A stretch of DNA of 64,000 nt, taken from Polyangiaceae bacterium. GTDB lineage: Bacteria; Myxococcota_A; Polyangia; Polyangiales; Polyangiaceae. Both the position numbers and the translations under genes were made by a program. Below, in pieces: positions 11,757 through 28,563 of the stretch (the first letter of the stretch is position 1; each line of letters opens with the position of its first letter). The stretch covers positions 248,001-312,000 of the forward strand of contig JANXOF010000037.1 of NCBI GenBank assembly GCA_025353725.1, read 5' to 3'. Below the pieces are notes generated by a model that was not told the origin of the DNA, searched no databases, and saw nothing but the letters and a program-made list of their open reading frames with translations.

Positions 11757-13660
11757 TGGTGGAGGACGCGTTAGTAGGGCCGCGTTACGTTGTGGGTATA
11801 GACCTTGGAACAACGCACACCGCTCTTGCGTATGCGGCGATTTCGGAAGGGCCCGCGGGTCCAGCAGGGACGCTACGAATGTTGCGCATTCCGCAGGTGG
11901 TCGCACAGGGCCTCGTGGACGAGCGTGAGCTTCTCCCGTCTTTTCTTTATATTCCTCATCCGAGTGAAGGAGCGCAGGCCCTTCCTTGGGATGCTTCGCG
12001 CCGTTATGTTGTTGGCGAGTATGCCCGTTCGCGCGGGGTAGATGCCCCTTCTCGCGTCATCTTGAGTGCGAAGAGTTGGCTCGGTCACCCTACGATGGAC
12101 CGGCGAGCGGGCATTTTGCCTCCGGGTGCACCAACGGACGTCGAGCGGATTAGCCCTGTGGAAGTTTCCTGGCGGCTGCTCGAGCACGTCGTTGAGTCCT
12201 GGGACCACGTGATTGCGAAGGGCGACCCCGACCTCGCGCTCACGAAGCAAAGCATCGTGCTCACGGTTCCAGCTTCATTCGACGCATCAGCCCGCGAGCT
12301 CACCACGGAGGCAGCCTATGCGGCAGGCCTCGTCGACCTCACGTTGTTGGAAGAGCCGCAAGCGGCATTCTACGCATGGCTTGGACTTCGCGGCGAAGCT
12401 TGGCGGCATGAGGTTAAAGTCGGAGATGCTGTGTTGGTCGTCGACGTAGGCGGAGGGACGACCGACTTCTCGATCATTGCGGCCTCGGAAAGCGAAGGAG
12501 CGCTTTTGCTCGAACGCGTTGCCGTCGGTGAGCACATTTTGCTTGGTGGCGATAATATGGACCTCTTGCTCGCTCACATCGTGGAGCAGAAGTTGGTCCG
12601 CGATGCCGAGGGTGCTGGCCCCGCTCCTGAACTAGATCGATGGCAGCGAGTCGCTCTCCAACATTCAGTAAGGAGCGCCAAAGAAGCGTTGCTTGGCGAC
12701 GCTTCGCTCGCGTCGGCGCCCGTGGCTGTCGCCGGAAGGGGGAGTAAGCTTGTGGGCTCTATACTGCGCACGGAAATCACCCGTGAGGAAGTGACCTCAT
12801 CGATCATAGACGGGTTTTTCCCTATCGTCGACGCCGCGACTAGGCCGACGGGGCGAGCGCGTGCAGCGCTTACACAGCTCGGGCTTCCCTACGCGCACGA
12901 CCCAGCGGTCACTAAACACCTCGCCGCGCTGCTCACGAAGCATGCCTCCTCTCTCCCTTCGTCCACGCCGAAGACGATCGACGCTCCTGATCAGGGCGTA
13001 TCCAACGCTGCACGGAGCCTCTTGCATCCTACACGCATTCTATTTAACGGCGGTGTGATGAAGAGTGCCGTCCTGCGCGAGCGACTATCGTCCAGCGTCG
13101 CTCGCTGGGTCGAGGCCGAGGGTGGCGTCGCTCCAGTCGTCCTTGACGGAACGGACCTGGACCTTGCTGTCGCGCGAGGCGCGGCGCTTTACGGATTAGC
13201 GAGGCGCGGCCGTGGCGTGAGGATTCGCGGGGGTACCGGTCGGGCGTACTACGTAGGTATCGAAAGCGCGGTTCCTGCGGTTCCAGGTATGGACCCACCG
13301 GTCACGGCACTTTGCGTGGCGCCCTTCGGGATGGAGGAGGGCACTGTCGCAGAGATTCCAGGGCAGGAGCTTGGCGTGGTCGTCGGCGAAAAGGTTCGCT
13401 TTCGCTTCTTTGGCTCCACCGTTCGTCGTGACGATGCCGTGGGAAGCACGCTAGAGCGCTGGAGAAAAGATGACCTCGACGAGCTCGCACCGATTGAAGT
13501 CGACCTTCCCGCCGAGGGGCGCAGCGCAGGGGATATCGTGCCCGTGACGCTTCGGTCCAGCATTACTGAGGTGGGAACGCTTCTCCTCGAGGCGCTACCG
13601 CTGCACCCGCAAACGAAGGACGAGCGCTGGAAGGTCGAACTCAGCGTCCGCGCCGACTGA
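11756..13660 (+). CDS. Hsp70-family chaperone, first of a pair
   Basis: This 634-residue protein has an actin-like ATPase domain. It shows the phosphate-1 motif VVGIDLGTTHTALAYA near the N-terminus, the phosphate-2 motif VVDVGGGTTDFSI near residue 230, and the adenosine motif LFNGGVMKSAVLRERL near residue 425. A beta-rich region of about 150 residues resembling a shortened substrate-binding domain follows. It diverges from DnaK: it has no lid helix bundle and no EEVD-like tail. It is cotranscribed with DUF2760 and a larger paralogue. Clients and cochaperones are unknown. Confidence 0.85.
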   Translation: MVEDALVGPRYVVGIDLGTTHTALAYAAISEGPAGPAGTLRMLRIPQVVAQGLVDERELLPSFLYIPHPSEGAQALPWDASRRYVVGEYARSRGVDAPSRVILSAKSWLGHPTMDRRAGILPPGAPTDVERISPVEVSWRLLEHVVESWDHVIAKGDPDLALTKQSIVLTVPASFDASARELTTEAAYAAGLVDLTLLEEPQAAFYAWLGLRGEAWRHEVKVGDAVLVVDVGGGTTDFSIIAASESEGALLLERVAVGEHILLGGDNMDLLLAHIVEQKLVRDAEGAGPAPELDRWQRVALQHSVRSAKEALLGDASLASAPVAVAGRGSKLVGSILRTEITREEVTSSIIDGFFPIVDAATRPTGRARAALTQLGLPYAHDPAVTKHLAALLTKHASSLPSSTPKTIDAPDQGVSNAARSLLHPTRILFNGGVMKSAVLRERLSSSVARWVEAEGGVAPVVLDGTDLDLAVARGAALYGLARRGRGVRIRGGTGRAYYVGIESAVPAVPGMDPPVTALCVAPFGMEEGTVAEIPGQELGVVVGEKVRFRFFGSTVRRDDAVGSTLERWRKDDLDELAPIEVDLPAEGRSAGDIVPVTLRSSITEVGTLLLEALPLHPQTKDERWKVELSVRAD

Positions 13661-13661
13661 T

Positions 13662-16457
13662 ATGACCGCGCGATTCGTCGTCGGTATCGATCTTGGGACG
13701 ACGCATACCGTCGTGGCCTACGCTGCAATCGACTCGAAGCGTAAGGGAGCCCCTGAGCCGCGCATCCTCGACGTTATGCAACTCACGTCAGCGAGCGATG
13801 CGGAAGCTCTCGCGCTCTTGCCTTCTTGTCTTTATGCGCCGATCTCAGGTGAGGTTGCCGATGAACAGACGTGGATCGTCGGTGAGATGGCGCGCCGTCG
13901 GGGCGCTGAAGTCGTTGGCCGCACAGTCTCCTCGGCGAAGAGCTGGCTCTCACACGGTAACGTTGATCGACTTGCGCCTATCCTTCCCTGGGGAGTTGCA
14001 GACGCACCAGAATTAGAACGACCTCCGCGTCTCTCGCCGGTGGAAGCAAGCGCCAAGATCCTCGCCCACATCCGGGAGGCGTGGGATCGAGACTTCCCCG
14101 ACGCGCGCCTATCTGAACAAGACGTCATCCTCACACTGCCTGCTTCGTTCGATGAAGTCTCGCGCGAACTCACCCGCCAGGCCGCAGAGCAGGCAGGCCT
14201 CCACCCCGTCCTTCTCGAAGAGCCCACAGCAGCATTTTACTCGTTGCTGCGTAATGAGGCTGTCATCCGTGAGCTTGTTGAAAGGTGTGGAGCGTCTGAG
14301 GGCTCAGTGCTCGTATGCGATGTTGGTGGAGGAACAACCGACTTGTCTTTAATGGGCGTTGCCAAAGCAAGCGCTCCACCCTGGTTTTCGGTGCGTCGCA
14401 TCGCCGTCGGGCGGCACCTCCTGCTCGGTGGCGACAATATGGACCTCGCACTCGCAGGGGTCGCGGAGGAACGCATTGTTGACAAGGGTGGAACGCTTGG
14501 GGCCGCAGAGTTCGCACAACTCGTGGTTTCCTGTCGAGACGCGAAGGAAGTCTTGCTTGCTCATGGCGCGCCCGACCAAATCACCGTTGCCGTACTCGGT
14601 CGTGCCTCCAAGCTCGTAGGTGATGCCCGCTCGGCGACGCTTACGCGTGAAGACGTCGAGCGTATCGTCCTCGGAGGTTTCTTCCCTGCGCAGAAGGAAC
14701 ACGTTCCCTCAAAGTCCCGCGGTGGTGTCGTCGCTTTTGGGCTGCCCTACGAGCGCAATCCAGCAATTACTTCGCATGTCGTGGGGTTTCTCAAGCGTCA
14801 CGCGACTGAACTCCCCCGCGGTACGCCGGACGCGATCCTCTTAAATGGGGGAGTCTTTCGTGCAAAGCCGATTGTTCAGGCACTCGTACGCGCGCTCGCC
14901 GACGAAGGCGGCAGGACGCCGTCTGTATTGCACGGAAGCGACCCAGACCTTGCCGTAGCTCGCGGAGCAGTACTCTATGGTTTCGCTCGTCGCGGAACGG
15001 GAGTTCGAATCGAAAGCGGAGCGTCACGAGGGTATTACGTGGCGCTTGCCCCCGTCGAGCGGCAGGAGCATGTGCATGCGGTCTGCATTCTTCCGCGCGG
15101 TGCCAGCGAAGGCGTACGTTACTCTGTCCGACGCTCGTTCGATCTTGCACTCGGACATCGTGTGCGCTTTGATCTCTACGCTTCGGATGTCGCTCGCGAT
15201 GACGTCGGTACAGTGGTCACCCTCGCAGACGGGACCTTCGAGCGCCTTCCGCCGATTACCGCTCATCTTCCTTCCTCCGGGAAACGGCAAGCGCTCGCCG
15301 TTCATCTCGGCGGTGAGCTGCTTACGACTGGGCAGCTCGAACTGTCGTGTAGCGAAGCGGTCGCGCTCGAGGGGGTGCCGGGACGTACTTACCGCTTGGA
15401 GTTCCAGCTCCGTGAAAGCTCGAGCCTGCGACCTTCGCGCGCGCCTGTGCCGCCTTCGTTTGCGCCTCCACAAGTAGGCGACGGCGCATCGTCGTTGGTT
15501 GATGAGGGCGCGCGCATCTTAGACCGGGTCTTCGGCAGGCGGACCGACGCCATGCCGAGGGAGGTGAAGGACGTTGTACGAGACCTCGAGAAGGTCCTCG
15601 GCGAGCGCGGAACATGGACCATGGACGTGGCGCGAGCGCTGGCAGATCGCCTCTTGATCAACACGGGCGCTCGTCACCGTACGCCCGACCACGAACGCGC
15701 GTATTGGTCGCTTTTGGGATTCTGCATGCGCCCAGGGTTTGGCGATGCGCTTGATTCTGCGCGTATCGAGTGTATCTACCCGCTTTTTAGCGGTCGCCTT
15801 GCTTTCCCGAACGAGGCTCGGGCTTGGCCGCAGTTCTTTATTGCCTGGCGCCGCATGTCGGGGGGCCTTGCCGAAGGCATCCAGACGATGATGCGCGACG
15901 CACTGGACCCCTTGGTTGCTCCGCCCGAAGCGAAGCTCAAAAAGCCAAAGCGTGTGCCCGAGGGCGCCGATGAGGTACTCACAACGCTGGCGGCCTTGGA
16001 GCGTGTTTCTACTTCGCGTCGTGTGCAATTAGGAGATTGGACCGTCGAAAAAACGTGGTCGTCGAAAGACGCGCGCTTGTGGACCGCCATCGGTCGCATT
16101 GGCGCACGCGTGCCGCTCTACGCGAGCGTGCACCACGTCGTCCCCCCGACTGTCGCTGAAATCTGGATTGAACTTCTGCTTCGGCAGGATTGGGCCTCCA
16201 TCACGACAGCGGCCTATGCTGCCGTTCAGCTCGCGCGAGTCACCGGGGACCGCGCGCGCGACGTCTCGCAAAAAACGCGAACTGAAGTGTCCGCGCGTTT
16301 GGAGGCAATAAGCGCACGACCGGAATGGGTGAGGGCCGTGCGCGAATTGGTCGAGGTCGACGACGACGACCGTGTGTCGATGCTCGGCGAAAACCTCCCG
16401 CTCGGCTTGCGACTCAGCGTCGACGGCTCACCAGGCGCAAGGGGCATAGTCCTTTAG
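13662..16457 (+). CDS. Hsp70-family protein with C-terminal DUF3731-like domain
   Basis: At 931 residues this is a longer paralogue of the preceding gene. The ATPase domain has VVGIDLGTTHTVVAYA, VCDVGGGTTDLSLM and LLNGGVFRAKPIVQAL, followed by a short beta-domain to about residue 590. The C-terminal 320 residues are helical, with repeats rich in Trp and Arg, and resemble DUF3731, which is known to follow Hsp70 domains. The gene starts 1 base after its neighbour ends. Its last 30 bases overlap the 3' end of the oppositely oriented SDR gene. Confidence 0.82.
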   Translation: MTARFVVGIDLGTTHTVVAYAAIDSKRKGAPEPRILDVMQLTSASDAEALALLPSCLYAPISGEVADEQTWIVGEMARRRGAEVVGRTVSSAKSWLSHGNVDRLAPILPWGVADAPELERPPRLSPVEASAKILAHIREAWDRDFPDARLSEQDVILTLPASFDEVSRELTRQAAEQAGLHPVLLEEPTAAFYSLLRNEAVIRELVERCGASEGSVLVCDVGGGTTDLSLMGVAKASAPPWFSVRRIAVGRHLLLGGDNMDLALAGVAEERIVDKGGTLGAAEFAQLVVSCRDAKEVLLAHGAPDQITVAVLGRASKLVGDARSATLTREDVERIVLGGFFPAQKEHVPSKSRGGVVAFGLPYERNPAITSHVVGFLKRHATELPRGTPDAILLNGGVFRAKPIVQALVRALADEGGRTPSVLHGSDPDLAVARGAVLYGFARRGTGVRIESGASRGYYVALAPVERQEHVHAVCILPRGASEGVRYSVRRSFDLALGHRVRFDLYASDVARDDVGTVVTLADGTFERLPPITAHLPSSGKRQALAVHLGGELLTTGQLELSCSEAVALEGVPGRTYRLEFQLRESSSLRPSRAPVPPSFAPPQVGDGASSLVDEGARILDRVFGRRTDAMPREVKDVVRDLEKVLGERGTWTMDVARALADRLLINTGARHRTPDHERAYWSLLGFCMRPGFGDALDSARIECIYPLFSGRLAFPNEARAWPQFFIAWRRMSGGLAEGIQTMMRDALDPLVAPPEAKLKKPKRVPEGADEVLTTLAALERVSTSRRVQLGDWTVEKTWSSKDARLWTAIGRIGARVPLYASVHHVVPPTVAEIWIELLLRQDWASITTAAYAAVQLARVTGDRARDVSQKTRTEVSARLEAISARPEWVRAVRELVEVDDDDRVSMLGENLPLGLRLSVDGSPGARGIVL

Positions 16458-18029
16458 GAACTTGCCCCAGACGTGATTGCCGGTCAGAAGGCCTGAAAAG
16501 AAGGGGTCGCAGATACGTGCGGCGCCGTCGACGATGTCGAGCGGTGGCTGGAAGTCGTGCATTTCTTGCTTTCGGGCTGAGAGCGCGACCGGGTCTTCAT
16601 CCGTCACCCAGCCGGTGTCGACCGCATTCATGAAGATGCCATCGGCCGCGTAATCTGGGGCACTCGTAAGCGTCATCATGTTAAGAGCCGCCTTGGCCAT
16701 GTTTGTGTGAGGGTGCTTGTCGGTTTTGGTACGTCTCGAAAACTGACCTTCGACCGCCGACACGTTGACGATGTGTTTTTCGAGAGTCGGCGTGCGCTGC
16801 ATCAGTGATTTGAGCTTGCTGCACAAGATGAACGGCGCGACAGCATTCACGAGTTGAACCTCAAGCATTTCGGGAGACGGAATATCCGCGAGTTTTAGTC
16901 GCCAGCTGTTGTTCGATCGCAAATCGACTTGCTGGAGGTCTGCATCGGACCTGCCCACGGGGAATATCTCAGCGTCGTTCGATGGGTCGTCGTACGCACA
17001 CGGCACCTGCGAAAGTAGGGCTGACGACCGAATGCCGACCCCCGGGCCTTCACCGCGCCACGCAACGAACCCTGTAGCCTCGGCCTTCTGTTGCAACCCA
17101 GGCTCAAGCGCATGAGGCATCGCATCGCTTTGAACGTCGAGCGACATCGACGCTTTGCATGCCTCGTGACCGCGTAGGAGGGACTGTATCTCGGGCGCCA
17201 AGTGGTCGAACGAACGCTGCTCCAATTCGAGCATATGGGCGTAAAACCCGGCCGGCCGCCGTACCGTTTGGGCCGCATTGTTAATAAGAATGTCGAGCCG
17301 GTCTTTCGTCTGCGTCAGATAACGCGCAAACATCTCGACGCTTGGGGAGTGGCGAAGATCGAGGCCGTGTACCTCAAGGTTTGCATGCCATTTCGAGAAA
17401 TCTGTCTCGCGGGAAAACCGGGAGGCCGCATCACGCGGGAACCGTGTTGTGACGATGACGCGCGCGCCGGCTCGCAACATCATGAGCGCGGCGTGAAAGC
17501 CTATCTTGACTCTCGCTCCTGTAATGAGCGCCACTCGGCCGTTAAGAGACGCCGTTTGAAAACGCTTTGCGTAGTTCAGATCTCCGCATGAAGCGCACAT
17601 GGCGTCGTAGAAAAAGTGGACCTTTTTAAACCACGTTTTGCACACGTAGCAAGCGCGCGCCTTTACGAGCTCACCTGGCGCTCCCGACGCCTCGTGGCCC
17701 GTGCTCGTTTGCGGCGCAACTTGGGCCGGGTATTCGGCTTGAATGAGCTGCGGAGGCGCAGCGAAGACGTCAGCCAGGCGTGCAACTCGTATCGAGGTGC
17801 TCGCTCGGACTTCGCGATCGTGAGTTTGAATTTTTTTCCGCACAACCCGACGAAACGCCTTTGCGCTCTTTCGGTTGTCGTCGCGGCTGGGACGCGACAC
17901 GCGGCCTGCGGCGATCATGAAGGCGACGCGGAGTTCGTCGGGCATCTCACTGAGGCGCGACCGATCTTCCAGGATTGATTCGAGGAGCTCGAGACTTCGC
18001 TGTAGCTCTTCGGGCGTAAATTTCGACAT
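16428..18029 (-). CDS. Atypical short-chain dehydrogenase/reductase-like protein with Cys4 motif
   Basis: This 533-residue protein has about 110 N-terminal helical residues, then a CxxC pair at 127/130 and a second at 145/148 (zinc-ribbon-like). A Rossmann SDR domain follows with TGARVKIG (170-177) and INNAAQ (249-254). An insert of about 110 residues separates the two halves. The usual catalytic Ser is present (Ser424) and so is the Lys (Lys446), but the position four before Lys, normally Tyr, is Thr442. It is the last gene of the molybdenum operon, 8 bases after modC. The reaction is unknown, and without the Tyr it may be a binding or regulatory protein. Confidence 0.7.
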   Translation of the reverse strand: MSKFTPEELQRSLELLESILEDRSRLSEMPDELRVAFMIAAGRVSRPSRDDNRKSAKAFRRVVRKKIQTHDREVRASTSIRVARLADVFAAPPQLIQAEYPAQVAPQTSTGHEASGAPGELVKARACYVCKTWFKKVHFFYDAMCASCGDLNYAKRFQTASLNGRVALITGARVKIGFHAALMMLRAGARVIVTTRFPRDAASRFSRETDFSKWHANLEVHGLDLRHSPSVEMFARYLTQTKDRLDILINNAAQTVRRPAGFYAHMLELEQRSFDHLAPEIQSLLRGHEACKASMSLDVQSDAMPHALEPGLQQKAEATGFVAWRGEGPGVGIRSSALLSQVPCAYDDPSNDAEIFPVGRSDADLQQVDLRSNNSWRLKLADIPSPEMLEVQLVNAVAPFILCSKLKSLMQRTPTLEKHIVNVSAVEGQFSRRTKTDKHPHTNMAKAALNMMTLTSAPDYAADGIFMNAVDTGWVTDEDPVALSARKQEMHDFQPPLDIVDGAARICDPFFSGLLTGNHVWGKFLKDYAPCAW

Positions 18030-18037
18030 GACGCGGC

Positions 18038-18763
18038 CTACTTAGCCGCCGCGCGGATCTTCGGCAACGACAGCGTTGGGTCGTCAATAGACGCCGTGCG
18101 AACCACCCGCCCTTTGTCGAGTAAGACCACGCGTTCGCCGAGTACGGCAGCCTCGTCAGCGTGATGAGTGACCAACACGGCGGGAATTCGTTCGCGCGCA
18201 AGCCACTCACCCACCTCGGCGAGGAGCTCCACTTTGACGCCGCTGTCGAGCGCAGAAAACGGCTCATCGAGAAGTAAAACCCTCGGCTTCATGGCAAACG
18301 CGCGGGCAAGCGCGACCCGCTGAGCTTCTCCTCCCGAGAACGTCTGCGGTTTTCGGGTACCAAGGTGGGCCACTCTCATTCTCGCTAGCATCTCGTTTGC
18401 GTGGGCCTTTCGTTCGGCCTTTGGGATGTCGCGCGCGATTCCGTAGGCAACATTTTCGAGGCCGGTCATGTGTGGAAAAAGTGCAAGCGTCTGAAAGACG
18501 TACGCTACGCGCCGCTCATGAATCGGTCGCTCGATGGCACGCGAAGCGTCAAACCAAACGTCGCCTCCGAGGGTAATCCGTCCACCACCCGGGCGTACGA
18601 TTCCGGCGATGCAGGCGAGCGTTCGGCTTTTTCCTGATCCTGAAGGACCGAAGAGCACCGTCACGCCAGGTTCGACCGCGAACGCGACATCAAGTGCGAA
18701 GGATCGCGTGTGCAGGGCCACCCGGACCTCGAGCTTTTGTGCGCTTTCTGGACGGGATATCAT
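18038..18763 (-). CDS. modC: Molybdate ABC transporter ATPase ModC (no TOBE domain)
   Basis: This is the energising subunit of a molybdate importer. The Walker A motif is GPSGSGKS at residues 39-46. The signature FSGGEAQRVALARA and Walker B VLLLDEPFSAL follow in the usual spacing, then a switch His in VTHHADE. At 241 residues it consists only of the nucleotide-binding domain. Typical ModC proteins of about 350 residues carry a C-terminal molybdate-binding TOBE domain that is missing here. The start overlaps the modB stop (ATGA). Assignment to molybdate rests on the neighbours. Confidence 0.82.
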   Translation of the reverse strand: MISRPESAQKLEVRVALHTRSFALDVAFAVEPGVTVLFGPSGSGKSRTLACIAGIVRPGGGRITLGGDVWFDASRAIERPIHERRVAYVFQTLALFPHMTGLENVAYGIARDIPKAERKAHANEMLARMRVAHLGTRKPQTFSGGEAQRVALARAFAMKPRVLLLDEPFSALDSGVKVELLAEVGEWLARERIPAVLVTHHADEAAVLGERVVLLDKGRVVRTASIDDPTLSLPKIRAAAK

Positions 18764-19425
18764 TGGTCGCTTGGCCGCTGAGAAGTCAGCTTGTTCACGG
18801 CGTAAAGCAAGGAGAGGACGAGAACGGTAAGGACGACGACCATCGCCATGGCCTCCTGCTCACGCTGTCCTTGAATCGCTCCGTAGATTGCGAGTGAGGC
18901 CGTGCGTGTTTTGCCTGGGATGTCGCCCGCAACCATGAGCGTGACGCCAAAGTCACCGATTGCCCGTGCGAACGCGAGCATGAGGGCGGCTATGATTCCG
19001 CGCGTCGCGAGCGGAAACTGCACCGTGAGGAGCGCGCGAAGTTGGGTTGCGCCGAGCGTGCGGGCCGCGAGGATCAGCGTCGGATCGGTCGCCTCGAGGG
19101 CGGCGCGAACGCTCTTCACGACCAGCGGTAGCGCCCCGATGGTGGCGGCTACGACCGCGCCCGTCCGCGTGAACACGATGGAGCTTCCCGTGAGCGCCTC
19201 ATAGGCACGACCAAGCATGCTGCGCCTTCCGAGGAGCACAAGGACGTAATACCCGAGCACGGTGGGCGGCATGACCATCGGCGCCGTGAAAAGGACATCG
19301 ACCAGCTCGCGCCCCGGAAAGCGAACGTTCGCAAGGAGCGCCGCGACGAAGACCCCCGAAACAGCCGCAATAAGCGTAGCGATGGTGGCTACCTCGAACG
19401 ACAGGAAAAGGGGGGCGAGATCCAC
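18760..19425 (-). CDS. modB: Molybdate ABC transporter permease ModB
   Basis: This inner-membrane permease has 221 residues and about five hydrophobic segments. The coupling-helix region with the EAA-like motif (AARTLGATQLRALLTVQFPL) lies near residues 140-160, and FARAIGDFGVTLMVAGDIPG is characteristic of ModB. It starts with GTG at 19425, 41 bases after modA, and overlaps modC by four bases. Confidence 0.88.
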   Translation of the reverse strand: MDLAPLFLSFEVATIATLIAAVSGVFVAALLANVRFPGRELVDVLFTAPMVMPPTVLGYYVLVLLGRRSMLGRAYEALTGSSIVFTRTGAVVAATIGALPLVVKSVRAALEATDPTLILAARTLGATQLRALLTVQFPLATRGIIAALMLAFARAIGDFGVTLMVAGDIPGKTRTASLAIYGAIQGQREQEAMAMVVVLTVLVLSLLYAVNKLTSQRPSDQ

Positions 19426-19466
19426 GGTCGCCTTGACTCTACCTTTTTGCGGTTCCTCGGCCCTGT

Positions 19467-20294
19467 CTACTTTGACGAGGGGAGTGTCTCACCCGGAAGG
19501 AGAAATCCGTACTTGCGCATGAGTGTGCGCCCCGCGTCGGACGAGACGAACTCGACAAAGGAGCGTGCCTCGTTGGGCTTTCCGCCGCCGCTGCCCCCGC
19601 TGCAGACCACCATCGCTTGGTCGAGCGGGGCGTGGAGCTCGGGGTCGATGAGGGCGTAGCTGCCTCCCGACGTGAGTGCCAGAGATAAAGCAACCACGGC
19701 GACTTCCGCGTTGCCCGATTGCGCAAACATCATCGTTTGCTGCACGTTCTCGCCGTAGACGGTGCGAGGCTCGACAGATAGCCAGACTCCTGAATTGGTC
19801 AGCGCTTCCTTGGCCGCGACGCCGTAGGGCGCGTGGTCCGGATTGGCTATGGCTACCTTTGCGTACTTCGCATTCGTGAGGTCGCTGAGCTTGGTGGGCA
19901 GCTGCTCTTTGTATTTTGACCAAAGGACGATACGGCCGCGGGCGTAGAGACGTTGCGTGTCGGGGTTGCACGCTTTTGCTCGGACAACCTCGTCGACATA
20001 CGAAATGTTGGCCGCTGCGAAGACGTCGAACGGGGCGCCCTCGCTGATCTGCTTAGCGAGGAGTCCCGTTGACCCAAAAGTGAAGGCGACTTTTTTGCCA
20101 GACGCGCGCTCGAAGGCCGCGCCGACTTCGGTGAACGCAACGGCGAGGTCGGCGGCTGCGGCTACGCGTACCGGATCGCCGCGACGGCCGGCGTTGTGAT
20201 TCGGCTCACGTCCGCAACCCCCCAACAAGGCCGAGGCTAGAGCTGCGATAAACGCTCCAAAACCGCTACGCTGCAGTGATGAGCGTACCGACAT
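19467..20294 (-). CDS. modA: Molybdate-binding lipoprotein ModA
   Basis: This periplasmic binding protein has 275 residues. A signal peptide ends in the lipobox LLGGC (Cys27), so it is probably membrane-anchored. The mature part begins with PVRVAAAADLAVAFTEVG and has FGSTGLLAKQISEGAPFDVF, the ModA pattern of anion-binding Ser and Ala main-chain contacts. The start lies within the last 29 bases of the upstream storage-protein gene, implying translational coupling. Tungstate could also be a ligand. Confidence 0.88.
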   Translation of the reverse strand: MSVRSSLQRSGFGAFIAALASALLGGCGREPNHNAGRRGDPVRVAAAADLAVAFTEVGAAFERASGKKVAFTFGSTGLLAKQISEGAPFDVFAAANISYVDEVVRAKACNPDTQRLYARGRIVLWSKYKEQLPTKLSDLTNAKYAKVAIANPDHAPYGVAAKEALTNSGVWLSVEPRTVYGENVQQTMMFAQSGNAEVAVVALSLALTSGGSYALIDPELHAPLDQAMVVCSGGSGGGKPNEARSFVEFVSSDAGRTLMRKYGFLLPGETLPSSK

Positions 20295-21081
20295 CTTCGC
20301 CCTCCAGAGCGCGGGTGATCATACCCCGCTCGAGCCCGTTGACGATTTGAAGCTCCGTGCAAAATCGCGCGCGCGTGAGGTATTGAATGACGATGCGCTC
20401 AAGGACCATGTCCGGTAAGTCGGCTTTGATGAGCTCGCGCGCCGTGATGCGCGGGATGTGTTTGGCCGCCTTGTTCTTCTTGGGATCGTCGTCAAAAAGA
20501 CCCGCCTCATCTTTGATGAAGATCGCGCGCTTCACGCCTAGCGCCTCAGCGGTAAGAAAGACTCCTGCGTCGGTACGATGCTCCGGAATGCGACCGCCTT
20601 CGCTCGGTTTTTCCCAATAGCCAAAGGGAGGCATTCCCGTCATAATAGGAATACATCCTAGGTTGAAGTAGAGCGGCAGTTTCTCGAAGTCATCATTCAT
20701 GATGTAAATGCCACCGTGCTTGGCGAGGAGCATTTGCATCATGCGAGCATTCTGGCGCGGAACATAACCGCCCAGCGCGGCTAGCAGGCCGGTCGGCAAT
20801 TCAAGATCGCTCGCCACGGCGTAGATGTGACGCGCGCGCGTTCCACCTCCGCAGCATACGAGCAGCTTGTGCGCGTCTTTGGCCGCCACGAGCTCGTCGA
20901 GAATCGGGAATACCGCCGCTCGGCCGCGGTCCATGACAGACTGACCGCCCATCTTCAGGACTTTCACGTCGGGCATCATCGCGACGGGCGAATAGTTGAG
21001 GGCGCGCGCATCACCCGGAGAGGTGAGGGCCGAGTCGGCGAGTGTGCTCGGGAGTTTGCGTCGTTCGTGGGGGCTGTTCAT
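20266..21081 (-). CDS. mosB: Molybdenum storage protein subunit, MosB-like
   Basis: This 271-residue member of the amino-acid-kinase/UMP-kinase fold resembles the beta subunit of the Azotobacter molybdenum storage protein. That known complex is an alpha3-beta3 cage which uses ATP to deposit molybdate as polyoxometalate clusters. Visible matches are KMGGQSVMDRGRAAVFPI, the nucleotide loop GGGTRARHIY, RTDAGVFLTAEALG, FIKDEAGLFDDDPKKN and the C-terminal QIVNGLERGMITRALEGEDV. A GAGGAG sequence precedes the ATG. It lies between mosA and modA. A plain UMP kinase is less likely because of the paired paralogue and the modABC context. Confidence 0.82.
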   Translation of the reverse strand: MNSPHERRKLPSTLADSALTSPGDARALNYSPVAMMPDVKVLKMGGQSVMDRGRAAVFPILDELVAAKDAHKLLVCCGGGTRARHIYAVASDLELPTGLLAALGGYVPRQNARMMQMLLAKHGGIYIMNDDFEKLPLYFNLGCIPIMTGMPPFGYWEKPSEGGRIPEHRTDAGVFLTAEALGVKRAIFIKDEAGLFDDDPKKNKAAKHIPRITARELIKADLPDMVLERIVIQYLTRARFCTELQIVNGLERGMITRALEGEDVGTLITAA

Positions 21082-21091
21082 GGGGGTCTCC

Positions 21092-21931
21092 TCACTCCTT
21101 CACGATGACGGTGCCGACGGGCTCCCCTGCGAGCGCTTTCGTAAGCTGCCCGGGGACGAGACCGTTGACGATCTGAACGTGTTTAATGTGTCGTGCGCGC
21201 TCCCAGGTCGTGAAGAGCGAGCGGTCGAGGATTAGCTCGTCGGGTAAGTTTTTCATGAGGTCGCTCAGCGTGGTGTGAGCGATGAGCTTTGCGTCAACGT
21301 GCTTCTTAGGGTCTTTGTCGTAGAGGCCGTCTTCGTCTTTCACGAAGATAATCCGGCGAGCACCGAGGACCTCGGCGTGAATGAAGAGGCCAAAGTCTGA
21401 GCCGTGGACCGGTAAGATTCCGTTGTCTTCGGGAGGTGGCTCCCAGAAGTGATAGGGGGGAATTGAGATGACGATCGGGAGCATCCCGCTCTCGAGGTAG
21501 AGCGGTAGCTCCCAGAAATGCTCGCGTTGCATGACGATCGACCCGTACTTCGCCAAGAGCGCGTTGAGGAACACCGCGTTGCATTCCTCCATCGCGCCGA
21601 CGAGTTGGGCGACGCCGCCGAGAGGGAGGCCGAGGTCGAGAGCGACGCTCATCGTGTGGCGCACGCGCGTGCCGCCGCCGACCGAGAGCACGATCTTGTG
21701 CTTCGTTTTGCCCGCGCGGATGGCTCGAAGCTCCTCGACGAGCGGCCTTACGGCGCCTTTGCCGCGGTCGAAGATCGACTGGCCACCGATGCCGACCATC
21801 ACCACGTCGGGCATAATGGCGAACTCGCCCTCGGAGCTCGTCTTCGCGATCACGCGGCGATCGACGAGTGACTCGCGCATAAGCGTCGACTCAATGTGCG
21901 TGCGACCGTCGTCGGTGATGAGTTTGCTCAT
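21092..21931 (-). CDS. mosA: Molybdenum storage protein subunit, MosA-like
   Basis: This 279-residue paralogue of the next gene has the same fold and probably provides the other subunit of a hetero-oligomeric cage. Motifs include GIGGQSIFDRGKGAVRPLVE, GGGTRVRHTMSVALDLGLP, FVKDEDGLYDKDPKKH and QIVNGLVPGQLTKALAGEPV. The segment around residues 165-185 (PPYHFWEPPPEDNG) is rich in His, Trp and acidic residues, in the area where Mos proteins line the metal cavity. Which gene is alpha and which beta is my inference from remembered sequences. The ATG overlaps the upstream gene's stop (ATGA). Confidence 0.78.
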   Translation of the reverse strand: MSKLITDDGRTHIESTLMRESLVDRRVIAKTSSEGEFAIMPDVVMVGIGGQSIFDRGKGAVRPLVEELRAIRAGKTKHKIVLSVGGGTRVRHTMSVALDLGLPLGGVAQLVGAMEECNAVFLNALLAKYGSIVMQREHFWELPLYLESGMLPIVISIPPYHFWEPPPEDNGILPVHGSDFGLFIHAEVLGARRIIFVKDEDGLYDKDPKKHVDAKLIAHTTLSDLMKNLPDELILDRSLFTTWERARHIKHVQIVNGLVPGQLTKALAGEPVGTVIVKE

Positions 21932-23238
21932 GTCTCTTCCCTCGTTATGCCGTCATCGATGTGCGTGCCATCAGTGGATGCCGTCACGGCGTACTCTTTC
22001 GTAAGCGCGCGGATAAGCGGCGAGCTGACCAGTCCCGAGAGTATCCCAAAAGTCGTGTGGATGAGCAGTCCCGGAATAAGAAACGCCCATGCTACAGCCG
22101 GCGCCTGCACGGACAGCGTCACCGTAAAGATCGTGGCGAAGCGACCAAGGCCCATCAGGCCGCCGACGACGGACCACGCCAGCGCCCCCGGTGTTCGCGT
22201 GCCGTAGAGGCGTACGACGAGAGGTACGCAAAAGTCGCAGACGATGCCCGGCGCCACGTGCTTGAGGATCTCGAAGATGCCGTAGCGCCCGTCGCCGAGG
22301 AGGAAGGCTACGGACCCCATCACAAGACCCGTGAGTGTTGCACCAAAACGCGTGCGCGTGCGGAGGGTGGCGACCACGTAGAGCGGCGTGAGCAGCACAA
22401 GCTTGTGGCCCGGAGCGAACGGGATATTCGGAAGGAGCTTCAGGGCTTTGATGCCGAGCATAGTGAGCGAAAGCCCCGAGATGATGGCGATGTCTCGTGC
22501 GAGCTCGCGATCGCGCGGGACGCGTGGCGCGTGGTCACCGTCGTGGTGGTCATCGGCCGTGGCGACGTATTCCTCTGCGCGCGCGATGTGGCGGTTCATG
22601 CGCTCGACGATCGGACCGACGTCGCCGCGTGCTATGCGGACCAGGCTCGCCCGAAACCCGCGTAACGCCGTGAGGAAGCCGCGCGGGCTTCGATGTCCAC
22701 CGCCACCGCCACCGCCACCGCCACCGCCACCGCCACCGCCACCGCCACCATTTCCACGGCCGCGCATGCGCTCATCGTTACCCAAGAGCGCCAGGACGGC
22801 ATCCATGGAGGCTGCGATGACATCGGGCGTGCCGAGCTTTCGGAGTCCGAGCGCGATGGCGCGCGAATCGCCGGTGCGGGAGATGCGCGACGCGAGCACA
22901 ACGGTCAGCACGCGCAGCACCATCAGGGCGCCCACCGCGAGGCCGCCCATGTTTATTGGGAGACGCGCGAAGCCGACGTTGAGCCGAACCCAGCGGTCGA
23001 CATGTGCCTCTTCACCGGTGAAGGCGTATGACGCGAGAATAAACGCCGCGAAACCCCAAAGTTTCGCCACCTGTCGCCACAACGGCCGGGCGCCGTGACC
23101 CAGTGCGAGCCACGCAGCGGCGTGGAAGAGGGCGACAATTGCCGCAATGCGCGCGTCCTTAATGATGAACGCCGCAACCGCAATGGCGGCGAGGTAGACC
23201 ACTCGGAGGCGCGGATCTATCGTGGGGCGCGCTGTCAT
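21928..23238 (-). CDS. Fused ECF-type transporter protein: T component plus S-like domain
   Basis: This 436-residue inner-membrane protein has two parts. The N-terminal half (about 1-160) has helices and a cytoplasmic segment like energy-coupling-factor T subunits (DPRLRVVYLAAIAVAAFIIK, then SRISRTGDSRAIALGLRKLG). The C-terminal half (about 240-420) has five or six hydrophobic segments and PFAPGHKLVLLTPLYVVAT, like a substrate-specific S component. A linker with 18 consecutive glycines (residues 164-181) joins them. No ECF ATPase gene is nearby, so it may borrow ModC or a distant ATPase. The ATG at 23238 is preferred to an upstream start at 23343 because the extra residues look non-coding. 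It heads the molybdenum operon, but its substrate is not established. Confidence 0.65.
   Translation of the reverse strand: MTARPTIDPRLRVVYLAAIAVAAFIIKDARIAAIVALFHAAAWLALGHGARPLWRQVAKLWGFAAFILASYAFTGEEAHVDRWVRLNVGFARLPINMGGLAVGALMVLRVLTVVLASRISRTGDSRAIALGLRKLGTPDVIAASMDAVLALLGNDERMRGRGNGGGGGGGGGGGGGGGGGGHRSPRGFLTALRGFRASLVRIARGDVGPIVERMNRHIARAEEYVATADDHHDGDHAPRVPRDRELARDIAIISGLSLTMLGIKALKLLPNIPFAPGHKLVLLTPLYVVATLRTRTRFGATLTGLVMGSVAFLLGDGRYGIFEILKHVAPGIVCDFCVPLVVRLYGTRTPGALAWSVVGGLMGLGRFATIFTVTLSVQAPAVAWAFLIPGLLIHTTFGILSGLVSSPLIRALTKEYAVTASTDGTHIDDGITREET
22696..22749. repeat. Hexanucleotide microsatellite encoding 18 Gly
   Basis: The plus strand is almost pure CCACCG repeats, which on the minus strand alternate GGT and GGC glycine codons inside the ECF fusion gene. 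Such simple repeats change length by replication slippage in multiples of six bases without shifting the frame. Confidence 0.9.
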
Positions 23239-23299
23239 CTGAGGAACGTACCTGAACGCTGCGACGAGCGAGCGCGCGTTGGCGCCCGCGAAATGCGCG

Positions 23300-23480: not shown

Positions 23481-24029
23481 TCATCCTCCGCTTTGTTCAG
23501 CCTTCGATTTCAGAGGAGGGCACACCGAGCGAAGGATTTTCTGTTTCACCGGTGGCATTGAACGAAGGTACTTAACAATTGAAAATACTTCAAAGTCCGT
23601 CATTTCCGCAAAGTGCGTCATCTGCGGGCAGAGCTGGAGGTCGTCTTTGTCGTATCCGTTGCGAATGGCTCGAGCGAGAGCGAGGTCGGTGTAGCCACGC
23701 TTCGCGGGGTCAGCTACCGAAGAATCTCCGAGTCCCGTCTCGATATCGGGCGTGAGATTGGGGGCGTAAAGCTCCACACGCGGATCGCTCGTGACGCCGT
23801 CAATAGCCTTCGTTGAACCGGCCATGTTGTCGCCGTGGCAGGTTGCGCATTTTCGCTTCATCACGGCTTCGGCTCCCTTCGGTACCGTCGCCGCTTCTCG
23901 GGTCGTCGCGCTTGAGTCACCTCCGTCGGTCGCACCTAGGGCACTCGCGGCGTCCGTACCTCCGCAGCCCAACGTTGAAAGCAGACTTCCAAAAATGCCC
24001 AATAGGGTCATTCCTCGTTTCCGCGTCAT
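23481..24029 (-). CDS. Mono-haem c-type cytochrome lipoprotein
   Basis: This 182-residue protein has an N-terminal signal peptide ending at Cys22 (LLSTLGC lipobox), a Ser/Thr/Ala linker, and one haem-binding CATCH motif at 61-65. The C-terminal half has RGYTDLALARAIRNGYD and DFEVFSIVKYLRSMPP, typical of small class I cytochromes that feed electrons to or from a partner. The ATG at 24029 has GGAGAAG seven bases upstream and is preferred to one 42 bases earlier. It is located in the envelope. The partner is unknown. A truncated copy lies directly downstream. Confidence 0.82.
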   Translation of the reverse strand: MTRKRGMTLLGIFGSLLSTLGCGGTDAASALGATDGGDSSATTREAATVPKGAEAVMKRKCATCHGDNMAGSTKAIDGVTSDPRVELYAPNLTPDIETGLGDSSVADPAKRGYTDLALARAIRNGYDKDDLQLCPQMTHFAEMTDFEVFSIVKYLRSMPPVKQKILRSVCPPLKSKAEQSGG

Positions 24030-24073
24030 TCGAGTGCTTCTCCTCGGACGCTCTGCTCGCCCGTCATGCAAAG

Positions 24074-24450: not shown

Positions 24451-25440
24451 TTACTTGCCGCACGTTCCAGCTGCGTGCTTCGCAATCGTGTCGTCGACGA
24501 ACGCCTTGATTCCAGCCTTTACCGTATCTGGCATCTTGAAAAGTGGGTGGCTGTACGCCGTACCCATCTCAATGGTGTAGGTCGACTTTTTCTCGATACC
24601 GTTACTCGCGACAAGCGTTCCGTCCGGCGACGTCGCGAAGTATTGACGGATATAGCTGGGGAACAGCTTTTTGCTTTCCTCAAAGGTATAGTCCGCTGGA
24701 AGCAGCGGGTTGCCGACGGCGCACACGAACCCCGTAATGCTATCGGAGGCGTGGCATGTCGCGCATTTCGTCGGCGCACCCGTGACCTGATTCGCGTTTT
24801 CCGTCACTTTTTTTGGATTGTTATTCGCGGTCCTAACCTCGGTCTGAAGCGATTCCAATTTGATCGCGTCGAACTTGGCTTTGTCGAAGCAAGTTCCCAG
24901 GCTCTCTAAAACATTTACCTGTGCTTTTTGCCCGCCGTCCGCAGCTTCGGTCTGGACCCACGTAGCCCACTTCGATTTCTCGTCTTCCGTTAGAGCGGGA
25001 GCGCCACCGCCGGAATGGACCCCTTTGGTGACAATCCGTGAAGCGGGGATCGCGTATCCGTTGAGGTAAATCATATCATACGTCTTCGAAGCGTCGCCTT
25101 TCGCCATCCACGTCGGTTGGCCTGCTCCGCCCTCCACGTGACAGCCCGAACACTTCGCTTCGAGAATCGGACTCACGTTCGCGGTGAAGAAAGCCTTACC
25201 TGCCTTACTGTTGGTCGGTAGGTTACCCGGTACCGGAGGCGCGCCGGTCGACGTATCGGTAGAGCCGGGGGACGTCGGTGCGGTTTGTGAGCCCGGTGCC
25301 TGCTTCCCGCTAACCGTTTCGGCGGGATTTTGCGTGACGCCGCCCGTACCAAGTCCGAGCTGACTCGTCTCGGCGTCGACGCACGCCGTGAGCGCGCCGG
25401 CTGAGGCGACAACTGCGCTGAGTAGGTTTCGAAAGTTCAT
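24451..25440 (-). CDS. Di-haem cytochrome c-like lipoprotein
   Basis: This 329-residue protein has a signal peptide ending at Cys20 (ALTAC) and a long Pro/Thr/Gly/Ser linker to about residue 75. It has two haem motifs, CSGCH at 97-101 and CATCH at 226-230. The stretch before the first (FFTANVSPILEAKCSGCH) is the planctomycete/myxobacterial-type cytochrome signature. The ATG at 25440 has AGGAAGAGG seven bases upstream. It lies 2 bases after the MYXO-CTERM gene and is certainly cotranscribed. It probably transfers electrons at the cell surface or in the periplasm, with an unknown partner. Confidence 0.8.
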   Translation of the reverse strand: MNFRNLLSAVVASAGALTACVDAETSQLGLGTGGVTQNPAETVSGKQAPGSQTAPTSPGSTDTSTGAPPVPGNLPTNSKAGKAFFTANVSPILEAKCSGCHVEGGAGQPTWMAKGDASKTYDMIYLNGYAIPASRIVTKGVHSGGGAPALTEDEKSKWATWVQTEAADGGQKAQVNVLESLGTCFDKAKFDAIKLESLQTEVRTANNNPKKVTENANQVTGAPTKCATCHASDSITGFVCAVGNPLLPADYTFEESKKLFPSYIRQYFATSPDGTLVASNGIEKKSTYTIEMGTAYSHPLFKMPDTVKAGIKAFVDDTIAKHAAGTCGK

Positions 25441-25442
25441 GA

Positions 25443-27365
25443 TCAAACCTCTTCCTGCTTACGACGGAGCGCGAGAATCACACCAGCAACCGCGACGAGA
25501 AGAAGGCCGTTGTTCGAGTTGGATGTCGATCCGCTCGAGACTGCGCACCCTCCCGCGTCGCTGCCAAGATCGCCGCGACCGCGCGATCCGCTCCCTGTTG
25601 GGTCGTCAGGCGAGGTTGCTTCCGTACCCCTCAGCACGTTCGGGTCGGCTGCCTGGCTACTTGCGCCCTTGATTCGCGGTGCCGGCCCCGTGACGGACGG
25701 ATTGCCGTTCGCATCGACGCTGGGAGTTCCGGTGGGAGAGCCGGGAACGACTTGGATACCGGGCGCAGCGCCCGTTGGGACGACAGACAGCCACAGTCCT
25801 TGTCTCTTTGCGAGCGTCGCGGCGGTCGCGTCCTTGTAACCGTTGCCGACGACAAGCGTGAGCTGTTTGAAGTCAGTCATGAAGCCATTGGCGATTCCAG
25901 CGAACGGGTTCGCGTGAACTATCGAGGTCGCGAGATTGCATCGCCCCTGGTTGTTCGGATTGCGGAGCCCGCGCGAGCAGGTCGCGCTATCGGCGAAATT
26001 CGCGTAGGAGACTAAGCTGTTTGCCGACTTTGCACTCAACGTTGAGCCGTCTAGCGAATACGTTTGGAGAAATCCATTCTTCGTCCCGATCGCCGGCGCT
26101 CCCATTACCGCGATCCCGCCTGCCCCGTACGGAACCACTTTCGTGTGGCTACCTACAGGGCCGACCCCTACGGTCTCAGGACCCTTCGGCTGAAGATCGG
26201 CACCGAGACAACGAGCGGCGGCGAGCGATGATACACCGTTATTCATATGCCCGTCACCGCCATTCGGCTTCCCGTCAAGCTTCGCCCCACGCGTATAGCT
26301 GACCAAGTATGCACAGTCAGGGTTACCGAGCGCAACCACAGATGGTTGGCCTATGGACTGCTTCTTATTTTGATCACCTTGAGCGACAGTTGCCTGCTTG
26401 ACGATAGCGCCCGTCGCGACGTCGAGAATTGCGCATTGCGCTGCATAGCCGGGTTGAGTGTTCGCCTTAACTGCACAGGTTACGACCTGCTTTTCGTCGG
26501 CTAACAGGGCAGCGTCGGGTCGGCAGTGTCTGCAGTCGTCAGAAATGCGCTTGAACCAATTTACTTTGACTGCGTTGTCGGCCGCTATCGAATAGCTGAA
26601 TGCCTCGAGCGCCTGGTTGTTATACTGAACAAACGCGATCTGATTGTTTTTTGCCAGTCCGCCGGGCTTGCCGCTGCCGACGACCGCTTTCATCGTCCCG
26701 CGCTGGTCACCAGGGTTAGGTACGTTGATGCCTTGGGCAAGGGCCGCCTGGACGAGGTTCGTTCCGAGTTCGGGCCTATTCGCGTCAACGTTATTATTTT
26801 TCGTGGGAACTGTCGTTCCGTCCGCGAGGCGGTGAAGAGAAACGACGAGCTGAGGGTTGTTGTTATCGTTGCCGTTGTGCTCGGTCGCGATGATCGAAGC
26901 TAGAATGGGCTCGGCCCCTTGCGGAGTGACGGCATTGGCTTGAGGCAAGTTGCATGCCCGCTCGCCCTCTCTGGGAACAAAGTCTTTCTTGTAGTCGACG
27001 GCGAAGCCCGTGGACTTGAGCGTTCCCACGACTAGCGCACATTGAATATAACTCGTCTTCGCGGCATTTTGGTTGGGCTTGTCGGCGCCGAGCATGGTCA
27101 CTGCGATGATGCGAATCGATCCGTCCGGATTTTGCATAGTCGTGAAACTTGGCGCGTTCACGCCATTCAGCGTAAGCTTTCCAAGTTTCGGCGAGCCATC
27201 TTTTTCCTTCGCGCCGGTACCCGTGGTGTCGAATGCCAGCGTTGTATATGGATTAGCGACGATGGTGTCGTTCAATCCAGCGGCAGGTCCGTCTGCTCGG
27301 GCGTAGTCCGAGGCGAACATTGCCAGCATCGAAACCACTCCTGCACAAATTCGAGTTGTCTTCAT
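25443..27365 (-). CDS. Secreted protein with MYXO-CTERM-like anchor
   Basis: This 640-residue protein starts with a Sec signal peptide of about 24 residues. The body is rich in Asn, Gly and Val with repeated beta-type stretches, and a single CxxC (CRHC) sits near residue 287 without a following His. The C-terminus has a Gly/Ser linker, GGC, a hydrophobic segment (LLLVAVAGVILAL) and RRKQ. This is the tripartite tail that myxobacteria use for surface anchoring or processing. The function of the body is unknown. It lies in one operon with the di-haem lipoprotein, so the two may act together at the outer membrane. Confidence 0.7.
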   Translation of the reverse strand: MKTTRICAGVVSMLAMFASDYARADGPAAGLNDTIVANPYTTLAFDTTGTGAKEKDGSPKLGKLTLNGVNAPSFTTMQNPDGSIRIIAVTMLGADKPNQNAAKTSYIQCALVVGTLKSTGFAVDYKKDFVPREGERACNLPQANAVTPQGAEPILASIIATEHNGNDNNNPQLVVSLHRLADGTTVPTKNNNVDANRPELGTNLVQAALAQGINVPNPGDQRGTMKAVVGSGKPGGLAKNNQIAFVQYNNQALEAFSYSIAADNAVKVNWFKRISDDCRHCRPDAALLADEKQVVTCAVKANTQPGYAAQCAILDVATGAIVKQATVAQGDQNKKQSIGQPSVVALGNPDCAYLVSYTRGAKLDGKPNGGDGHMNNGVSSLAAARCLGADLQPKGPETVGVGPVGSHTKVVPYGAGGIAVMGAPAIGTKNGFLQTYSLDGSTLSAKSANSLVSYANFADSATCSRGLRNPNNQGRCNLATSIVHANPFAGIANGFMTDFKQLTLVVGNGYKDATAATLAKRQGLWLSVVPTGAAPGIQVVPGSPTGTPSVDANGNPSVTGPAPRIKGASSQAADPNVLRGTEATSPDDPTGSGSRGRGDLGSDAGGCAVSSGSTSNSNNGLLLVAVAGVILALRRKQEEV

Positions 27366-27438: not shown

Positions 27439-28563
27439 TTAGTCGCGTGTGGCTGCAGTATTTGATGCTATTTGGACGCTTAAGTCCGTGTCTTCCGAGA
27501 TCGCGGTGAGCTCACGAACGGTTGGTGTCGTTGTCTTGAAGACTTGAATACTGCTAACGAGCGCGTCAGCGTCGATGGTGGCAGGACCTGATTCGGTCTT
27601 CGCTTGGAGTCCGGCTGGCGCGTGAATTCGGACTTTTCCGTGATTGTGCTTGGGTAGTTCGAAGTAGAAGTCTTGCGCGATCGTTGCGAACTTAGTGCCG
27701 TCCGCACTCGCGATAACATCGTCGCCTGCGACAAAGTTGACCGCTCGAATGCCGCTCTTCTCTACGCCGAACCCGGCAAGTACCTTCGCGAGATTATACT
27801 TTCGTTCCGAGGCGTCCCCCATGGCCATCGCCTCCGTCAGCTGGCGGCGCTTCACAAATCCAACCATCTTGCCGTCGACATAGACCCTCGTGCCTTTTAC
27901 GGCATCGCCCGAAGCATAGGGAACGGCATCCGAGCAGGCGCCGTCGGCGCCAACGTGGCAACCGCGCTTCGGGTCAATCAGCGCAGAGGCCTTAGTAACA
28001 TAGAGAGTTATCTTCCGAATTTCCTGAACGTTCGTCTTATTCTTCAGGCCATCGGTCGACCAACACGTCACCGGCGCACCTGTCGTTCCGGACAGGAATT
28101 GAAACTTGAATCGGTCGGCGAACTTCTGCAGTTCCGCGCCTTCGATGCTAGCAATTCGATCTCCGTTTCCGTGAAGGTGAATCGACTTCAAGCTGTCGAG
28201 CGACACGCCGATCGCTTTTAGATATTCTGCGAGCCCGTAGCGGCGCGTTCCGTCATCCAGAGTTGTAAACGGCATTGGCGGCAAATCGCCATAGCGCAAG
28301 ACAGATGCTTGTACGCCGTCGACGAACACGCCAACGTCGAGCCCCATCATCTTTCGCGCCCCGTGCTTTGGGTCGTTCGGATCGAGCTTGCCGTCGCCTG
28401 ACTTTGACTCGCGTTCTGACGTAACAGCTGCGGCAAGCGCCACGCCATTCGGGAGAGCTTGTGGGGTATTGTGCGCAGCTTGCTCCGGCGTCCGACGTGA
28501 GCAGGCGACGAGGGCGCATGTCGCGAGAACGAAGGAGAGGCAGGTGCGGAGGGAGTTTGCCAT
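27439..28563 (-). CDS. Large lipoprotein of unknown function
   Basis: This 374-residue protein has a signal peptide and lipobox LVAC, with Cys about residue 21 after the ATG at 28563. An in-frame start 39 bases upstream would place charged residues before the signal and is disfavoured. Two similar segments appear: a VFVDGVQASVLRYGDLPP-type block and later VYVDGKMVGFVKRRQL. Each is followed by a LAEYLKAIGV/LAKVLAGFGV-type block and a VxxVxLHG/VNFVAGDD stretch, so the protein may contain two copies of one domain. No haem motif is present. It is 73 bases upstream of the MYXO-CTERM gene on the same strand. Confidence 0.65.
   Translation of the reverse strand: MANSLRTCLSFVLATCALVACSRRTPEQAAHNTPQALPNGVALAAAVTSERESKSGDGKLDPNDPKHGARKMMGLDVGVFVDGVQASVLRYGDLPPMPFTTLDDGTRRYGLAEYLKAIGVSLDSLKSIHLHGNGDRIASIEGAELQKFADRFKFQFLSGTTGAPVTCWSTDGLKNKTNVQEIRKITLYVTKASALIDPKRGCHVGADGACSDAVPYASGDAVKGTRVYVDGKMVGFVKRRQLTEAMAMGDASERKYNLAKVLAGFGVEKSGIRAVNFVAGDDVIASADGTKFATIAQDFYFELPKHNHGKVRIHAPAGLQAKTESGPATIDADALVSSIQVFKTTTPTVRELTAISEDTDLSVQIASNTAATRD

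Follow-up and report, generated by a model that had tools for sequence, protein, structure and literature searches.

The 64,000-nucleotide stretch of Polyangiaceae bacterium DNA analysed here (contig JANXOF010000037.1, positions 248,001 to 312,000; hereafter the window) encodes a three-gene unit in which a membrane protein, a fusion of an EcfT-like and an S-component-like domain of the energy-coupling factor (ECF) transporters, is followed by Mos1 and Mos2, two relatives of the molybdenum storage protein (MoSto) of Azotobacter vinelandii. The order fusion-Mos1-Mos2 recurs in seven phyla, and the arrangement is therefore not a matter of chance. Gene order, homology, predicted folds, cross-phylum linkage, the loss of a recognisable coupling region from the EcfT-like domain and the lack of a paired EcfA at the loci point to a locus for uptake and storage of molybdenum (or tungsten) oxyanions with a dedicated, motor-less membrane carrier, a reading that we regard as quite possible, if somewhat short of an even chance.

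MoSto is usually discussed as part of nitrogen fixation, and in 2019 it was described as being without known homologues in protein databases (PMC6448029). Its relatives can now be placed in seven phyla, where they are accompanied by a dedicated, motor-less ECF-like protein, and all tested genomes outside the canonical clade lack nitrogenase. It thus becomes testable by which route the metal passes from the membrane to the storage cage and why bacteria that do not fix nitrogen would store it, and the fusion may represent a new class of oxyanion carrier. A literature search, with subscription papers outside its scope, found among the papers listed no description of an ECF protein together with a molybdate system, or of MoSto outside nitrogen fixers.

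The conserved unit and its distribution

A reading of the window from sequence alone (hereafter the sequence-only reading) had proposed a seven-gene operon on the minus strand (16428-23238), its genes separated by overlaps of 4 or 29 bases or by gaps of at most 41. Coordinates, strand and spacing were all confirmed: fusion and Mos1 overlap by 4 bases, Mos1 and Mos2 are 10 bases apart, Mos2 and ModA overlap by 29, ModA and ModB are separated by 41, ModB and ModC overlap by 4, and 8 bases lie between ModC and the gene for a short-chain dehydrogenase/reductase (SDR). The genes are indeed contiguous here, but only fusion-Mos1-Mos2 forms a conserved core, ModABC being optional and SDR lying outside it. 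The ATG at 23238 agrees with homologues as the start of the fusion, which makes a longer open reading frame (ORF) with a GTG start, reaching 23343, unnecessary. The features, all on the minus strand, are as follows.

21928..23238, minus: T-S fusion membrane protein, 436 aa, core gene 1 (CbiQ match, AlphaFold model, VIA structure comparison)
22759..23238, minus: EcfT-like membrane domain, fusion residues 1-160 (family profile against EcfT chains)
22681..22758, minus: Gly-rich linker, fusion residues 161-186, at the place of the EcfT coupling region (predicted local distance difference test, pLDDT, mostly < 50)
21967..22509, minus: S-component-like domain, fusion residues 244-424 (VIA, invariant residues)
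21092..21931, minus: Mos1, 279 aa, core gene 2 (MoSto match; equivalent of MosA His156 kept)
20266..21081, minus: Mos2, 271 aa, MosB-like, core gene 3 (MoSto match; both kinase-family lysines kept)
19467..20294, minus: ModA molybdate-binding protein (TIGR01256, 187 bits, cut-off 62.5)
18760..19425, minus: ModB permease (TIGR02141, 212 bits, cut-off 182.6)
18038..18763, minus: ModC-like ATPase, short, 241 aa (TIGR02142, 204 bits, below the cut-off of 285)
16428..18029, minus: SDR-like protein with an N-terminal extension, outside the conserved module (split SDR match)

A scan of a species collection matched 337 stretches, of which 80 loci were kept; the counts rest on these 80, grouped by record titles, and they lean towards the window type because the query was the window's own Mos family. 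They come from Myxococcota, Pseudomonadota, Planctomycetota, Bacteroidota, Nitrospirota, Gemmatimonadota and Cyanobacteriota, so that the family is wider than the nitrogen fixers to which Mos proteins had been mainly attributed. The fusion was detected in 58 loci, covering all seven phyla, and many of the others are short contigs or of Kofleriaceae type. It lies directly upstream of Mos1, in many loci with an overlap of 4 or 8 bases; large negative distances between the two are an artefact of over-extended ORF starts. As regards the gene order in relatives, the core thus recurs across the phyla, whereas SDR is not kept and ModABC is often nearby.

Within Myxococcota, Mos is carried by 24 of 379 genomes and a strong fusion match is found in 19, 18 of which have Mos; the one exception has its fusion at the end of a contig. 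The hypergeometric probability of this co-occurrence (about 9e-25) overstates the evidence, since the genomes are related. In a search of plasmids, Mos was found only in Azospirillum, at loci with neither the fusion nor ModABC nearby, and the fusion was found in none.

Mos1 and Mos2

The assignment of both proteins to the Mos family was borne out by similarity. In phmmer searches of the PDB, the best match of Mos1 is MoSto beta (1.6e-61), followed by alpha, with the best other kinase at 1.6e-6; for Mos2, MoSto beta (7e-70) is likewise followed by alpha, with the best other kinase at 4.5e-7. Matches outside MoSto, no better than about 1e-6, are to kinases of nucleotides or of isopentenyl phosphate. 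Both proteins are thus much closer to MoSto than to kinases, and a UMP kinase-like identity fails on similarity.

The residues of the storage cavity give a divided picture. His156 and Glu129 of MoSto are covalent ligands of octamolybdate, and a tungsten cluster is bound by three symmetry-related histidines (PMC4504029). The equivalent of MosA His156 is kept, as histidine in 74 of 76 Mos1 sequences, but Glu129 and His140 are not. The tungsten-cluster histidines are presumably His140, a numbering that fits the MosA sequence. As for the lysines of the kinase family, that of the KxGG motif is kept in 80 of 81 Mos2 and is lost in Mos1, while a second one (VKDEDG) is kept in all Mos1 and all Mos2 (81 of 81 Mos2) at a position where canonical MosA has Glu. 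Each lineage therefore has one subunit with the full set and one that has lost a single lysine, a different one in each lineage.

Mos1 and Mos2 are, as in MoSto, two paralogous subunits encoded by adjacent genes. In the phylogenetic tree, canonical MosA and MosB group together, apart from Mos1 and Mos2 (support 96/87), and the Mos1 and Mos2 branches each take in several phyla. Judged from the tree, two independent duplications (MosA/MosB and Mos1/Mos2) are possible; they are no more firmly proposed because approximately unbiased tests rejected no alternative pairing of Mos1/Mos2 with MosA/MosB (p 0.29 and 0.15). Compared with A. vinelandii MoSto (PDB 2ogx, 6gu5), the window pair shares the two amino-acid-kinase-fold subunits, the His156-type ligand in one subunit and a strong sequence match; it differs in forming a separate clade, in lacking two cluster ligands, in occurring without nitrogenase and in having the fusion gene, and often ModABC, alongside, which the Azospirillum plasmid loci do not. 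MoSto stores polyoxometalate with ATP in an (alpha-beta)3 cage, and Mos1/Mos2 may do likewise. The Tub/Mop proteins also store molybdenum or tungsten, the Tub hexamer holding eight tungstates (PMC11980592). Mos1/Mos2 would share this role, whereas Tub/Mop have a TOBE fold and bind few oxyanions per hexamer instead of large metal-oxide clusters.

Two loci depart from the usual Mos layout. A metagenome-assembled genome (MAG) of Gemmatimonadales has two Mos1-like genes, one on either side of the fusion (L119:6928-9913). Another locus (L038:7987-9852, the same region as L081) has a 621-aa open frame of which only the end matches Mos1 (residues 197-279); the rest matches no window protein, and the frame may be a gene fusion or a misassembly.

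The fusion membrane protein

That the first gene of the unit encodes an ECF-like fusion, as the sequence-only reading had it, was confirmed by a Pfam CbiQ match, predicted folds and a profile match to EcfT. The CbiQ match (2.3e-9) covers only the N-terminal part. An AlphaFold model built with 38 homologues (mean pLDDT 86.4, predicted template modelling score 0.84) predicts an EcfT-like domain, a Gly/Arg-rich linker at the ATPase-coupling place and an S-component fold. In VIA, residues 244-420 align with S-components (ThiT, 4tkr, over 244-415, with Z 12.3 and rmsd 2.9 over 163 residues; PanT, 6zg3_C, with Z 12.2 and rmsd 3.0 over 170), and residues 6-168 align with EcfT (7nnu_D, Z 9.8, rmsd 5.9 over 157; 8bms_C, Z 9.4, rmsd 3.1 over 140). 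It should be noted that among helical membrane proteins Z values up to about 13 may reflect a common arrangement only; the fold reading draws its support from the top rows, which consist almost wholly of EcfT chains for one half of the protein and S-component chains for the other. Independently of the model, a profile of the fusion family matches EcfT chains in the PDB (1.2e-8) over its first ~155 positions only. Other searches were less informative: phmmer against the PDB returned Gly-rich linker artefacts only, Foldseek gave nothing under 1e-3, though its highest rows included EcfT chains and S-components, and the sole Pfam match for the S domain was Trep_Strep at 0.047, not over the cut-off.

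What distinguishes the fusion from an ordinary EcfT is the coupling region. In the window fusion and seven others, the CbiQ match breaks off around position 142 of 216. Four of these genomes also encode ordinary CbiQ proteins, and there the match runs on to ~210 or further. The EcfT coupling domain with its Ala-Arg-Gly motifs is not recognisable in the fusions and a Gly-rich linker stands in its place, 8 to 48 residues long among homologues and, over 45 fusions, 62% Gly with many Arg/Lys. Distant homologues keep a Gly/Lys/Arg-rich linker written in other DNA letters; in a few loci (L122, L125 and L130), the linker is short and poor in Gly. The linker DNA of the window (22681-22760) consists of a GGTGGC-type simple repeat and is likely prone to length change. 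The fusion is the sole CbiQ-family match in 8 of 14 genomes searched, and no tandem ATP-binding cassette (ABC) ATPase pair was found beside any of the 58 fusions when the loci were searched with ModC as probe, EcfA not being sought genome-wide.

Most residues invariant among fusions lie in the S domain, namely P270, P273, G277, K279, P285, G308, G315, G320, D335, R366 and G398; they concentrate in the loop between helices 1 and 2 (P270-K279), in that between helices 3 and 4 (G315-G320) and at D335, R366 and G398. Such loops commonly gate the substrate in S-components. H278 occurs in 37 and R297 in 40 of 45 fusions; together with K279 and R366, these S-domain residues would be fitting for an anion substrate.

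The fusion shares EcfT-like and S-component-like folds with ECF transporters (EcfAA'T plus S-component; CbiMQO), but unlike these it carries T and S in one chain, with a linker where a coupling region is no longer recognisable, has no paired EcfA at its loci and is linked to a storage protein. For the solitary S-components BioY and BtuM, transport in the absence of an ECF module has been reported (PMC11109136); ATPase-free transport by the fusion would be a parallel, although the fusion keeps a T-like domain in its chain.

Molybdate import, molybdenum enzymes and nitrogenase

The neighbouring molybdate importer was rightly named, in that ModA and ModB exceed curated cut-offs. ModC fails the full-length cut-off: its TIGR02142 match covers 3-218 of 353 profile positions, with no C-terminal part beyond position 218. 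Among 21 well-flanked Myxococcota loci, ModB is nearby in 10 and SDR in one; in the fetched loci, SDR accompanies Mos only in two close relatives (L056 and L057). SDR was rejected as a member of the unit, being missing from nearly all loci. An Rfam scan of the window gave no match, and a molybdenum cofactor riboswitch is therefore not called.

The absence of nitrogenase, remarked on for the window, extends to the whole genome and to the other Mos-bearing genomes tested: nifH was over the cut-off in none of the 24 Mos-bearing Myxococcota genomes and in none of 13 genomes of other loci. Weak nifH matches, all below the cut-off, were rejected. Genes for molybdenum enzymes are present in the genome, and the supposition that the host is a myxobacterium proved correct, as it is Polyangiaceae-like.

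The upstream cytochrome and lipoprotein module

Genes beyond 23238 are tied to the Mos unit more often than SDR. They are listed below.

23481..24071, minus: c11, monohaem cytochrome c, optional upstream neighbour (PF00034, 1.5e-6)
24451..25446, minus: c3, cytochrome c lipoprotein with two CxxCH motifs (PF00034, 4e-4)
25443..27365, minus: c6, ~640-aa protein with a MYXO-CTERM sorting signal (TIGR03901, 22.2 bits, cut-off 20)
27439..28563, minus: c4, lipoprotein with a predicted sulfite-oxidase/PruR-like fold in its first domain (AlphaFold pLDDT 79, VIA)

Linkage to Mos was found in 16 of the 21 well-flanked Myxococcota loci for c3, in 14 for c6/c7 (MYXO-CTERM) and in 16 for c4, co-occurrence being taken from fetched loci only; c11 is present in 7 of the 80 loci. 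In L088, L097 and L107, the module stands directly before Mos1, with no fusion. Other named phyla contribute 11 well-flanked loci, all without the module. For the modelled first domain of c4, 26 VIA rows (Z 8.6-5.9, the next being 3.9 or less) all belong to the SUOX family or PruR except 9a64_A, which suggests a fold of this kind; the second half resembles a repeat. Since the conserved columns of the c4 alignment hold no Cys beyond the lipobox, molybdopterin binding is not claimed.

How the locus may work

In the proposed scheme, ModABC would bring molybdate into the cell, and Mos1/Mos2, as a heteromeric relative of MoSto, would use ATP to take up the oxyanion and keep it in the form of metal-oxide clusters. 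The fusion would serve Mos as its dedicated partner in the membrane. Its S-component-like domain would bind the oxyanion and move it across the membrane, while the EcfT-like domain, having lost its recognisable EcfA-coupling part, would hold the S domain in place and perhaps dock on Mos, with the result that ATP-using storage would pull oxyanion flux through the fusion. We infer the substrate of the carrier, the direction of transport, the docking and the storage of metal by Mos1/Mos2. As the Mos genes usually sit directly behind the fusion, storage and transport may be coupled in a previously undescribed way. The boldest form of the proposal, in which the storage machine replaces the ABC motor, the EcfT-like scaffold docks on Mos1/Mos2 and import by the S domain draws its energy from the trapping of molybdate or tungstate with ATP, appears unlikely.

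In favour of an uptake and storage locus with its own carrier are the rarity of the fusion without Mos, the MoSto homology, the His156 equivalent of Mos1 and the two lysines of Mos2, the curated matches of ModA and ModB, the basic residues of the S domain and the genes for molybdenum enzymes. Several points weigh against it. Glu129 and His140 of MosA are replaced across the 76 Mos1 sequences, from which the KxGG lysine is also missing, the source genomes are largely MAGs, and an unlinked EcfA might be encoded elsewhere in the genome. Some genomes (e.g., G368, G371 and G045) have Mos and no fusion anywhere, which means that the fusion is not essential to storage. Furthermore, ModABC would make a second molybdate importer redundant, and the fusion may therefore carry something else or export. 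The adjacency of ModABC, the molybdenum enzyme genes and the genomes with Mos but no fusion also suit a plain storage operon, somewhat unlikely in our estimate, in which ModABC imports, Mos1/Mos2 store for ordinary molybdenum enzymes and the fusion has a side role in importing or exporting other cargo (e.g., a metallophore or vitamin), possibly with an EcfA encoded elsewhere. A protein in such a side role would, however, hardly be expected almost only alongside Mos, with an unrecognisable coupling region and no adjoining paired ATPase in 58 loci.

The missing two of three known cluster ligands and the lost lysine of Mos1 would also fit a metal-sensing or regulatory kinase-like pair with the fusion as its membrane receptor, the more so as the S fold occurs in histidine-kinase receptors (PMC11109136). 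Nonetheless, no lysine of the set is missing from Mos2, His156 is retained in Mos1, ModABC is linked and the fusion model has no signalling domain, and we consider sensing distinctly improbable. It is also rather improbable that the Myxococcota locus mainly serves the upstream surface module as an extracytoplasmic metal system, the fusion exporting stored oxyanion or cofactor to it. The frequent linkage of c4, c3 and c6/c7, the loci in which the module precedes Mos1 without a fusion and the SUOX/PruR-like fold predicted for c4 argue for such a system, whereas its absence from the well-flanked loci of other phyla and the lack of a conserved c4 cysteine beyond the lipobox argue against it.

Further features of the window and related loci

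Loci of Myxococcota and Gemmata (L077, L080, L122 and L125) repeatedly have two further genes, c14 and c15, in the vicinity of Mos. In the window, the C-terminal end of c11 recurs in degenerate form (23299-23440) between c11 and the fusion, and a MauG/cytochrome c peroxidase-like gene on the plus strand (28933-30072; PF03150, 9e-40) adjoins the cytochrome and lipoprotein module. At the other end, two consecutive ORFs on the plus strand (11756-16457) are Hsp70/DnaK-like by sequence appearance, and the last 30 bases of the second are shared with the 3' end of the convergent SDR gene.

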